A stretch of 64,000 bases of DNA from Aciduliprofundum sp. MAR08-339 (GTDB lineage: Archaea; Thermoplasmatota; Thermoplasmata; Thermoplasmatales; Aciduliprofundaceae): assembly GCF_000327505.1 (NCBI RefSeq), contig NC_019942.1, forward strand, positions 1,302,001 to 1,366,000, written 5' to 3'. The notes under the pieces were generated by a model that worked only from the letters and a program-made list of their open reading frames with translations, did not search any database and was not told the DNA's origin. Shown piece by piece: positions 42,187 through 53,676 of this stretch (positions are counted from its first letter, which is position 1; every line of letters begins with the position of its first letter). The translations under genes and the position numbers were made by a program.

Positions 42187-42349
42187 ATCTTTCCACCTCT
42201 TTCTTTAGCATTCTCCTGTACTTTCCGTACCTGTCTTCAGGAGAGAATCTTGGAGGAAGCGCTTCCAATGTCTTCTCACCGCATTTCGGACAGTACAATT
42301 TAAGAGTGTATGTGCCGCATTTTGGGCATTTTCTTATTAGGGTGTGCAT
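42167..42349 (-). CDS. nop10: H/ACA ribonucleoprotein component Nop10
   Basis: Supports Cbf5 in H/ACA RNA-guided pseudouridylation. The 60-residue protein has the zinc ribbon [17 protein letters not shown] and the conserved [15 protein letters not shown] tail. I chose ATG 42349 (MHTLIRKC), which matches the family length, rather than a GTG two codons upstream inside the end of aIF2 alpha. The 3' end overlaps PAC2 by 20 bases. Confidence 0.95.
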
Positions 42350-42351
42350 TT

Positions 42352-43116
42352 TCACAACCTTCTGTGGTACTCTCCTTCACCACCCAATTTTGAAAACTCT
42401 TCAATGGCCCTTTTTGCCAGTGCCTGCAATTTCTCCTCGGCAGTTTTGTAATCCTCTGCCTTAACATTTATCCTGTACCTAGGGGCACCCATATAGGTAA
42501 CGGTAACATCCTCCTCCTCAATCTCCTGCAACACCTTCTTTATGTGCTCAATACCATCTGGTGCCGTGGTTGTGAGTTCCAGATAGCCGGATATGCGCAC
42601 ATATGGAGGAGTTATGTTCTCCTTGGCCACCTCTATAAACGTATCAATCCAATCTCCATCAAATCCCTCTTCCTTCAAAACATCCTCATTTATTGCGGCC
42701 TCTTCAAAGGCGGCAAACAACGTGCCAAAATGATTAATAAGTTCATATCCAAACTCATTGTAACATTCATCCACACTCCTTCCAAGTCGCTGGGCCACAA
42801 TTTCAAACAATTTCTGAGCCTTTTTCTCATTTTTCCATTCCTGAATCTTCTCGCGCTTCTGATGCTCATTCACGCGCTTTAAACTCAAATCAATGTGCCC
42901 ACGGGATGGATCAACACGCAGAACCTTACAAACAACCTTCTGACCCTCACGAACGTGATCCCTTATGTACTTTATCCACCCGGTGGCAATCTCGCTTATA
43001 TGGATAAAACCCTCCTTTCCCTCATATTCATCCAGGGTGACAAATGCCCCGTAGGGTTTTACAGTCTTCACGGTCGCGATTACAAATTCACCTGTCTCCG
43101 GGTATCCCTTTCTCAC
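42352..43116 (-). CDS. eif2a: Translation initiation factor aIF2 alpha
   Basis: Alpha subunit of the aIF2 heterotrimer. The 254 residues contain an S1-type OB fold ([25 protein letters not shown]), a helical domain and a C-terminal alpha/beta domain that contacts gamma. The ATG overlaps the stop of S27e by four bases. The order L44e-S27e-aIF2alpha-Nop10 is widespread in archaea, which supports the call. Confidence 0.97.
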
Positions 43117-51406: not shown

Positions 51407-51486
51407 AAGTGAGCATGCCTTTGTCTCTATTAATTATTTCCCGAAAATTTTATTTAGAGCCAGGAGCATATCTAATCGGTGTATTT

Positions 51487-52077
51487 ATGGGAAGGGTTAA
51501 GAAGAAAAAAGGGGCGCCAAAACCCTACGAACTACCTTCAATATTTGATGAAGAGCATGAGGAGGTGTCCTCATACAAGGATATAGAGGCGGAGGATCAT
51601 ATTGAGGCTCTTAAAGAGAAGGATAAAATGGAGAGGTTCAGGGAGGCTTCAAAACTAAGAAAAAGGGCAGCAGAATACGAAAGAAGGGCTTCCATTTACC
51701 ATCAGAAGTACAAGGCCGAGATGGAAAAGGTGGCAAGGTACCAGGCCGAGAAGGCAAAGTACAAGGAGAGGGAGCAAGAGATACGGGAAAAAATAAAACT
51801 TCTAAAGAGAAAGATTGCCGATTATCAAGAAGCGCTGAACTCGGCCACATCCCTCAAAAAGAGGGAGAGTTTGAGAGCGAAAATAGCCAGAGTACAGACA
51901 AAAATCTCCACCCTGAACTCAAAAATAAGCTCTCTGAAGGAGAAGCAAGCAGAGTATGTGAAGAGAATGAGTGCCCATAAGGCCAAGGCCGCGGAATATT
52001 ACCAGAGAAGCAAGAGCTATGAACACGAGGCCCTCATGTTCAAAAAAACGGCAGAATCTCTGGAGAGGGGAGAATGA
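51487..52077 (+). CDS. Long charged coiled-coil protein of unknown function
   Basis: A 196-residue protein. The N-terminus is basic (MGRVKKKKGAPKPYEL), then about residues 35-190 form a continuous heptad-rich coiled coil with many Ala, Lys and Glu (EKDKMERFREASKL; KIARVQTKISTLNSKISSLK). No catalytic motif or membrane helix is visible. It is the first gene of a three-gene unit, overlapping the next by four bases (ATGA). I chose ATG 51487; a longer frame from 51409 runs into the purB promoter region. It may be a scaffold or a structural partner of the two membrane proteins that follow. Confidence 0.75.
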   Translation: MGRVKKKKGAPKPYELPSIFDEEHEEVSSYKDIEAEDHIEALKEKDKMERFREASKLRKRAAEYERRASIYHQKYKAEMEKVARYQAEKAKYKEREQEIREKIKLLKRKIADYQEALNSATSLKKRESLRAKIARVQTKISTLNSKISSLKEKQAEYVKRMSAHKAKAAEYYQRSKSYEHEALMFKKTAESLERGE

Positions 52078-52385
52078 TAAACGGTGCACAGATAATTCTG
52101 GCTTCATCTTCCCTTCCATTCATAGCCTACGGTGCGTTTCTTATTCATGGAGGAGAGAAGGTGGAGGGGGCATACAGCATAATTGGAGGGATATACACCT
52201 TCATTGCAATAATAATGATTCCACAGGGTTTCCCAGGAGCATACGTGTTTCCCGTATCCATTGCTCTTTCCGGAATAGGAGGGTTCCATGGTTATGCAGT
52301 ATCAAGAAAAAAGATGAAACTTGCAAAGGGAATACTCCTAATTTCCATTGCAGTAGGCATTCTCCTCATGCAGGAGGTGCTCTGA
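52074..52385 (+). CDS. Small membrane protein, second gene of the three-gene unit
   Basis: A 103-residue protein with three or four hydrophobic segments (about 5-24, 30-48, 55-72, 82-100) separated by short polar turns (HGGEKVEG, SRKKMKLAKG). There is no recognised family. The start overlaps the coiled-coil gene (ATGA), and GGAGAGGGGAGA precedes the ATG. The stop abuts the next ATG. It is likely to be a membrane partner of its neighbours. Confidence 0.75.
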   Translation: MINGAQIILASSSLPFIAYGAFLIHGGEKVEGAYSIIGGIYTFIAIIMIPQGFPGAYVFPVSIALSGIGGFHGYAVSRKKMKLAKGILLISIAVGILLMQEVL

Positions 52386-52826
52386 ATGAATGTGAAGAAG
52401 ATCATAGCAGGGGTTCTCACATACATTGTTATATTCGCAATATATCTGGCATTTTTTTCATATCCTGTGACCCCTGCACACGTATCCCACATGGGCTATA
52501 TTGATGTTGAGACAAAGAATTTGAATAAACTTCCACAGGGCGTTTACAAGGTGTACGTTAGAGGCTCTATCACCCCCGCAATAGTTGTTATCGCCACCAT
52601 CAGAACTCCCTACGTGCCGTCAAGCAGTTACAGTTACTCCCTAAAGTACACCAAGGGCATTGCGGAAAATGAGATAAAGAAAAGGTATCATGTGAACATA
52701 CTCCTGGTTTACAAGGGAGAGAAGAAGGTTGAGATTCAAAACCACGAGGTTGTGATGGAGCTATATGACGTGCACCTGAACTACACTTCCTCAGTTCCTC
52801 ACTGCCTTCACTCAAACCAAAGATAA
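52386..52826 (+). CDS. Membrane-anchored extracytoplasmic protein, third gene of the unit
   Basis: A 146-residue protein with one N-terminal hydrophobic helix (about 6-26) that could be an uncleaved signal anchor. The rest is a beta-rich extracytoplasmic domain (GYIDVETKNLNKLPQGVYKVYVRG, VVIATIRTPYVPSSSYSYSLKY, KVEIQNHEVVMELYDVHLNY). The last ten residues (SSVPHCLHSNQR) look less regular than the rest; the gene may have lost its original 3' end (see the neighbouring fragment). Confidence 0.7.
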   Translation: MNVKKIIAGVLTYIVIFAIYLAFFSYPVTPAHVSHMGYIDVETKNLNKLPQGVYKVYVRGSITPAIVVIATIRTPYVPSSSYSYSLKYTKGIAENEIKKRYHVNILLVYKGEKKVEIQNHEVVMELYDVHLNYTSSVPHCLHSNQR

Positions 52827-52938
52827 TACAGCTCACCATAGGTGCATACTTCTGCCAGGAGAAATTCGAATAAATAATCGTTGCGTACGCATATCCACCG
52901 GAATTTGCTTCCGATTTCAACGGAGTGCTATCTTCAAT
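52827..52938. other. Spacer that may hold a fragment of an inactivated gene
   Basis: 112 bases with no intact gene. The minus strand reads open across it and into the end of the preceding gene, with protein-like residues in the first part (STPLKSEANSGGYAYA and IIYSNFSWQKYAPMVSC), then loses that character. It could be a remnant of an old gene or rearrangement; chance cannot be excluded. Confidence 0.25.
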
Positions 52939-53676
52939 TCAATGTTGAACTCTAACCTCAACCCTATCTCCAACAGAGCAGGGGAGTTTGGTTGAAGCAT
53001 CACCCTGATTGACCGCAAATTCAAGGAAATTCTCACTGTTAATCAGGGCAATTAGCTCTCCCCGCTTAGCAAATCCGTAGGATGGCAAAAATCTGAGTCT
53101 CATGCCGAAAACTTCCACGTATGCAGGCCTTCCAACCATGCTTCCCGGGATATTTGTTACCACATTTCCGAATCTGTCCACATGGATTATCTCCCCCTCC
53201 AGAGTATCTCCGTTTTTAACGGGAGGATGGTAGGAGAATAAATGCACATTTTTGATTTTTCTAAGAATTCCATCACTTCTTCCCATGTCTATGTAGGCAC
53301 CTGCAGGGGCAAACACATCCCTTCCATGAAAGGTCGTACTCTTTGGCTCCAATTGGATCTCATAGACATCATCAATCCTATCCGCCACATAGGTGATTAT
53401 GCCATTGTCAGGTCCAACATACCAGGAATCTCCAAATCTAACCGCTATACCCTTCCTGCTGGTACCAACACCAGGATCCACCACGAAAACATGCACTGCA
53501 TTTTTAAAGTATGGAAGTATGGCGCTCAGGACGTATGCAGCGTGTCTTATATCGTGCCTGCGAATGCTGTGAGTTATATCGATTATTCTGGCCTGGGGAT
53601 TTATATTCAGAATCACACCCTTCATGGCACCAACGTAATGGTCCATGTATCCAAAATCAGTTGTAAGGGTGATCAT
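52939..53676 (-). CDS. SAM hydrolase/hydroxide adenosyltransferase (DUF62)
   Basis: Archaeal DUF62 enzyme, related to fluorinases and chlorinases, that cleaves S-adenosylmethionine to adenosine and methionine. The 245 residues show LTTDFGYMDHYVGAMKG, DITHSIRRHDIRHAAYV, VFVVDPGVGTSRKGIAV, GPDNGII, GRDVFAPAGA and HVDRFGNVVTNI. Conserved aspartate, arginine and histidine of the hydrolase group are present. The start shares one base with the acylphosphatase stop. Confidence 0.93.
   Translation of the reverse strand: MITLTTDFGYMDHYVGAMKGVILNINPQARIIDITHSIRRHDIRHAAYVLSAILPYFKNAVHVFVVDPGVGTSRKGIAVRFGDSWYVGPDNGIITYVADRIDDVYEIQLEPKSTTFHGRDVFAPAGAYIDMGRSDGILRKIKNVHLFSYHPPVKNGDTLEGEIIHVDRFGNVVTNIPGSMVGRPAYVEVFGMRLRFLPSYGFAKRGELIALINSENFLEFAVNQGDASTKLPCSVGDRVEVRVQH

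Follow-up and report, generated by a model that had tools for sequence, protein, structure and literature searches.

A two-gene membrane module of Thermoplasmatota with a predicted Mog1/PsbP-like outer domain and its probable decay in Aciduliprofundum sp. MAR08-339

Two adjacent genes of Aciduliprofundum sp. MAR08-339, referred to here as genes 2 and 3, appear to encode a two-protein membrane module bearing a Mog1/PsbP-like domain on its outer face. In the same reading, which we hold with moderate confidence, the coiled-coil gene upstream (gene 1) is independent of the module, gene 3 is damaged and the module is probably decaying in this organism. The analysis thus sets apart from an accidental neighbour a genuine two-gene membrane module of Thermoplasmatota that seems not to have been described before, and the pair gains a likely fold and a fused homologue. 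The window analysed is a stretch of 64,000 nucleotides (G000:C1:1302001-1366000, G000 being the Aciduliprofundum sp. MAR08-339 genome, which is 99.4% complete on one contig of 1,437,090 bases); the features of the locus are collected in Table 1.

Table 1. Features of the locus, in window positions
Feature	Position	Strand	Remarks
Promoter-like block (BRE/TATA-like), 5' of gene 1	51438..51456	+	19 identical consecutive columns in four genus genomes
Gene 1, cytoplasmic-type coiled coil, 196 aa	51487..52077	+	Independent neighbour, outside the conserved pair
Gene 2, four-helix membrane protein, 103 aa	52074..52385	+	Pair member
Gene 3, truncated open frame in the window, 146 aa	52386..52826	+	Membrane helix and first part of the Mog1/PsbP-like domain
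Gene 3 C-terminus remnant	52808..52945	+	Profile match; out of frame, one internal stop codon
SAM hydroxide adenosyltransferase (PF01887, PF20257)	52939..53676	-	Conserved gene 1 neighbour; marks the pair insertion site

The initial annotation described a three-gene envelope operon, and its three reading frames are exact in both coordinates and overlaps: genes 1 and 2 share the four bases ATGA, and genes 2 and 3 abut with zero gap. It had assigned none of the three to a known family; indeed, none reaches a curated cut-off in Pfam or NCBIfam, and for genes 2 and 3 nothing stands above cut-off in Pfam, NCBIfam, PADLOC or PHROGs. The conserved block ahead of gene 1 looks like an archaeal promoter. 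Among the matches listed, a literature search at title and abstract level (Aciduliprofundum envelope or proteomics, Mog1/PsbP, DcrB/LpqN) returned nothing on these genes, nor any paper joining Thermoplasmatota with PsbP or DHVE2 with coiled-coil. Elsewhere in the window, positions 42269-42370 on the minus strand encode 34 residues that align at 47% identity with residues 604-637 of the DNA polymerase DP2 protein also encoded there; a second DP2-type match occurs in 7 of the 20 genomes searched, and this may perhaps be a shared zinc-ribbon segment.

Judged by their distribution across genomes, genes 2 and 3 are a real pair. They belong together because they are matched in the same 11 of 300 genomes of the class, and because they are adjacent in 18 of 19 loci and fused in the remaining one. 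Within the family, confident matches occur in 10 of 18 genomes, the identical ten for gene 2 (E below 1e-16) and gene 3 (E below 1e-33); matches at E 0.008 to 1, in 15 further genomes for gene 2 and 11 for gene 3, were dropped as chance. The 19 loci lie in 18 genomes (ten loci in the family, six in five other genomes of the class and three elsewhere in the phylum), which are related and do not represent 19 independent events. A twentieth gene 3 locus, L143, stands where its contig ends, the position of gene 2 falling off the contig. Genes 2 and 3 overlap by four bases in at least 11 of the 19 loci. In wider searches, a phylum sample gave matches in 9 of 389 genomes, and a scan of genomes of 84,980 species with one narrow peptide pattern gave 12 gene 3 loci, every one archaeal by title (Aciduliprofundum, DHVE2, Thermoplasmata, Thermoplasmatota and Euryarchaeota). 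The gene 3 protein of locus L132 found no match among plasmids.

The fused locus, L152 of genome G328, comprises a single open reading frame of 278 residues that matches both gene 2 (E 9.3e-12) and gene 3 (E 7.7e-34), arranged as three gene 2 helices, an acidic linker and gene 3. The fusion, seen on one contig of one assembly in 520 pieces, lends indirect support to physical contact between the gene 2 and gene 3 proteins.

Comparison of two genomes of the window's genus, G001 and G003, gave a dN of 0.089 against a dS of 1.71 for gene 2, and 0.040 against 1.58 for gene 3, both dS values being close to saturation. With dN so low relative to dS, the pair was under purifying selection between these genomes, despite gene 1 being broken in G003 today. 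The gene 3 protein of G063, a member of another family, is 58% identical to those of G004 and G010 and 44-50% identical to the remaining family members. Lateral transfer of the pair was considered and is not claimed, the relevant tree node having a support of 0.548.

Gene 2 had been described as a small four-helix membrane protein, and its AF2 model bears this out, with four helices at a mean pLDDT of 93.4 and a pTM of 0.80. A fold search with the model recovered generic helical bundles only, the best with a Z of 8.0 at 5.3 A, which lies below a meaningful level for helical bundles. The loop between helices 3 and 4 is basic in nine aligned family members, and less so in distant members; because it is basic, the sequence suggests that this loop lies inside and both ends outside. 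The fused protein of L152 fits such a topology because, with three helices only, its linker would lie inside and the gene 3 helix would then lead outward.

Gene 3 had been taken for an anchored, beta-rich protein. The anchor stands, as a single N-terminal hydrophobic helix in the window copy; that copy is, however, truncated, which the initial annotation had missed, and the intact protein, as modelled for the G001 locus L132 (pLDDT 84.4, pTM 0.77), is alpha/beta, comprising a helix at residues 3-25, three strands, a long helix, four strands and a last helix. The top structural match of this model is 6kac_P, which we take to be PsbP (Z 10.0, 135 residues aligned, 3.9 A), a score only moderately above the best Z of 7-8 reached by models without a clear match. 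LpqN (6e5d, Z 8.4), SciW (6xrr, Z 8.4), DcrB (6e8a, Z 8.0), EagT6 (6xrf, Z 8.0) and human Mog1 (Z 7.8) are also matched, and Foldseek placed CyanoP (2lnj) first, with an E of 3.1e-4, a probability of 1.00 and TM-scores of 0.47-0.50. Nineteen of the 35 top VIA rows bear the title PsbP, LpqN, SciW, EagT6, DcrB or Mog1 or are the P/F1 chain of a photosystem II entry; the other 16 comprise Tsi3, Tli4/TplEi, Apa, MTC28, NDH subunits and three uncharacterised proteins, several of the named ones belonging to the same fold group. Sequence identity to these structures is 4-14%, and most Foldseek TM-scores fall between 0.3 and 0.5. At E up to 10, Pfam models of the PsbP, DcrB/DUF1795 or LpqN type match none of 13 gene 3 members, and a profile comparison with PDB sequences gave NusA as its best match, at E 0.77. 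We propose, from the predicted structure, that the gene 3 domain resembles the Mog1/PsbP-like fold, and do not claim membership of the PsbP, DcrB or LpqN-type families. Two cysteines, Cys153 and Cys183, are invariant in all 13 aligned members and present in G334 too; the fused G328 protein is without the first and the truncated window copy without both. In most members, the outer domain is probably braced by a disulphide.

Taken together, the pair is most likely a two-protein adaptor or assembly factor of the outer face, decaying in the window genome. Gene 2 would form the four-helix membrane bundle, and gene 3 a single-helix anchor displaying its Mog1/PsbP-like domain on the outer face; gene 2 may hold the membrane helix of gene 3 in a small complex, the outer domain of which would bind another membrane or surface protein. 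It is also conceivable, with a rather low probability, that the pair is an unnamed archaeal two-protein assembly factor in which the outer domain, tethered by gene 2, acts on a respiratory or surface complex as a chaperone for its membrane helices or extrinsic subunits, and that Aciduliprofundum is losing it. CyanoP or the Eag chaperones would then perform a comparable job, of which the pair would be a dedicated membrane version.

In the window, gene 3 is broken. Full-length relatives measure 183-199 residues (n=12) against the 146 of the window copy, whose frame shifts at about residue 137. The C-terminal ~45 residues, among them the two conserved cysteines, are encoded downstream in another frame that contains one stop codon, and are recovered by profile at G000:C1:1354805-1354945 (E 8.1e-16) and G000:C1:1354808-1354945 (E 1.1e-14). 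By the L132 model, the window protein would have lost its last two strands, its last helix and both cysteines. Lacking this C-terminal part, the module is probably inactive or decaying in the window genome, and this copy of gene 3 is ill suited to expression or structural studies.

An alternative, which we hold unlikely, is that sequencing errors in the window hide a gene 3 that the living strain retains intact. The displaced remnant does still closely resemble its relatives, as expected of either very recent damage or error, and gene 3 is full-length in G001 and G003; an error would, however, require two separate defects, a frame change and a stop codon, in a nearly complete single-contig genome. 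The set is damaged in three of the four genomes of the genus, all three genes being open in G001 alone. In G003 (L062:6400-7560, G003:C1), genes 2 and 3 are open and a DDE transposase gene (276 aa, PF01609, E 6.4e-23) interrupts gene 1; the gene 1 matches on either side share 10 bases, as expected of a target duplication. In G002, genes 2 and 3 are gone, leaving 14 bases between gene 1 and the adenosyltransferase gene, the product of which is 97.6% identical to that of G001. These four close relatives constitute a natural loss series in which the operon is intact, truncated, interrupted or deleted. Outside the genus, both pair genes look broken in a metagenome assembly (G421, L140/L151, QMTB01000077.1), where gene 2 is shortened and ABC transporter genes lie near.

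Gene 1 is, as had been noted, a long soluble coiled coil: it contains no hydrophobic 19-mer above threshold, 44% of its residues are charged, and its hydrophobic periodicity of 3.44 residues was equalled in 1 of 500 shuffles, for which the scanning grid was slightly coarser than for the gene 1 sequence itself. Matches to SMC, SbcC, LmuB and similar proteins were coiled-coil matches only, far under cut-offs, and were not taken as homology; nor was the one PDB chain matched, a tail needle at E 0.002. That the proteins of genes 1 to 3 form one envelope complex, with a cytoplasmic rod, a membrane core and an external domain, accords with the four-base overlap of genes 1 and 2 in G000, G001 and G003 behind one conserved promoter-like block, and with the presence of gene 1 in all ten family genomes that carry the pair. 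We nevertheless regard this as quite unlikely given the distribution of gene 1. It is matched in 22 of 61 genomes at E up to 0.01, of which we count 19 (18/18 family genomes and G021 of another family, at E below 1e-29) and drop three weak ones with matches in long frames. Eight of the 18 family genomes have gene 1 and no confident match to gene 2 or 3: G002 (99% complete), G006 (99%), G009 (94%), G011 (85%), G014 (79%), G013 (75%), G007 (72%) and G015 (70%). Absence of the pair can be considered safe in the first three only, because the other five are 70-85% complete.

Seven family genomes from other genera carry the pair, and in each of them gene 1 lies on a separate contig. Of the 11 gene 1 loci examined that lack the pair (L070-L080), gene 1 in 10 directly adjoins the SAM hydroxide adenosyltransferase gene, the exception being L079 of another family. 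At class level, gene 1 is found in 25 of 300 genomes and the pair in 11, with seven having both; 18 gene 1 genomes are therefore without the pair and four pair-bearing genomes without a gene 1 match. G085 has gene 1 and the pair on one contig, about 100 kb apart. Seventeen class genomes outside the family contain relatives of gene 1 (E 7e-18 to 8e-6); in the loci looked at, these adjoin zinc-ribbon and HTH genes, TPR genes or transporter genes, and they may be look-alikes. Only in G000, G001 and G003 does the pair lie between gene 1 and the adenosyltransferase gene, and, as noted above, gene 1 is interrupted in the last of these. The best explanation is that gene 1 is an independent coiled-coil gene, behind the promoter of which the pair sits in the window's genus. 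Of the single unit that had been proposed, genes 2 and 3 survive as a pair and gene 1 does not as a third subunit. The search for co-conserved homologues suggested with it found the pair in the same genomes and gene 1 separately; the refuting observation named there, separate occurrence, applies to gene 1 and not to the pair. Gene 1 is not co-conserved with genes 2 and 3, and the topologies proposed for these two fit their models.

A role for genes 2 and 3 in conflict or immunity, the Mog1/PsbP-like domain neutralising an incoming toxin or blocking virus entry, seems quite improbable. The structural matches do include Tsi3 (Z 8.8) and Tli4 or TplEi (Z 8.6, 8.0), bacterial immunity proteins with similar structures act in this way, and the pair is patchily distributed and sometimes lost. 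Against this, neither gene has a PADLOC or PHROGs match worth naming, none of the 45 stretches of viral contigs that fit the search pattern encodes a gene 3 relative in this pattern-limited search, and the recognised neighbours, among those annotated, are housekeeping genes.

The neighbourhoods of the pair differ between lineages, and several are unrelated: gene 1 and the adenosyltransferase gene in the window's genus, a Cas4-like nuclease gene (Pfam-tested in G010 only) with transketolase-like genes recognised by eye, and elsewhere genes for a D-aminoacyl-tRNA deacylase or a glyoxalase, the latter a weak match below cut-off. Because these neighbours change, they indicate no client. Within G010, the gene for the Cas4-like PD-(D/E)XK nuclease (L064:8801-9502) overlaps the end of gene 3, and similar-sized open reading frames occur in G004, G008 and G012. 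Small proteins rich in Gly, Arg and Tyr are encoded near the pair in two distant genomes (L094:4239-5194, L066:2879-3271), that of L094 beside a protein with a PF02579 (dinitrogenase cofactor) domain. In L097, L098 and L099 (G153, G085), the pair stands directly upstream of genes for pyruvoyl-dependent arginine decarboxylase and deoxyhypusine synthase. Service in polyamine or hypusine metabolism, to which these 3 of 19 loci would point, is highly improbable and was set aside after a co-occurrence test in 20 genomes, 16 of which have arginine decarboxylase, pair-less G002 and G006 included, whereas pair-bearing G141, G174, G328 and G016 do not, and the two stand side by side only in G085 and G153.

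Returning to the preferred reading of an outer-face adaptor or assembly factor, genes 2 and 3 seem to be a family pair that has no name yet but whose fold is of a known type. The closest structural likeness is to CyanoP/PsbP, which are extrinsic subunits or assembly factors and share the predicted fold of the gene 3 domain (6kac_P first by Z-score, 2lnj first in Foldseek). Gene 3 differs from them in its one-helix membrane anchor and four-helix partner gene, identities are 6-14% and no Pfam match links them; these archaea are not known to have a photosystem. The similar predicted fold of LpqN-type proteins and DcrB (6e5d, 6e8a) is found in membrane-anchored envelope proteins with lipid anchors, to which gene 3 has no sequence match and for which no four-helix partner gene is known. 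The Eag (DUF1795) chaperones EagT6 and SciW (6xrf, 6xrr) likewise resemble gene 3 in predicted fold and are reported to bind the transmembrane domains of effectors (PMC7773334; PMC12881460). Unlike gene 3 with its membrane anchor, they are soluble and partner type VI secretion effectors, and no type VI effector with membrane helices was recognised beside the pair among those neighbours that were annotated. An adaptor role has also been proposed for PsbP/MOG1-like proteins in type VI operons (PMC3482391). For the archaeal pair, an adaptor or assembly role is our first choice.
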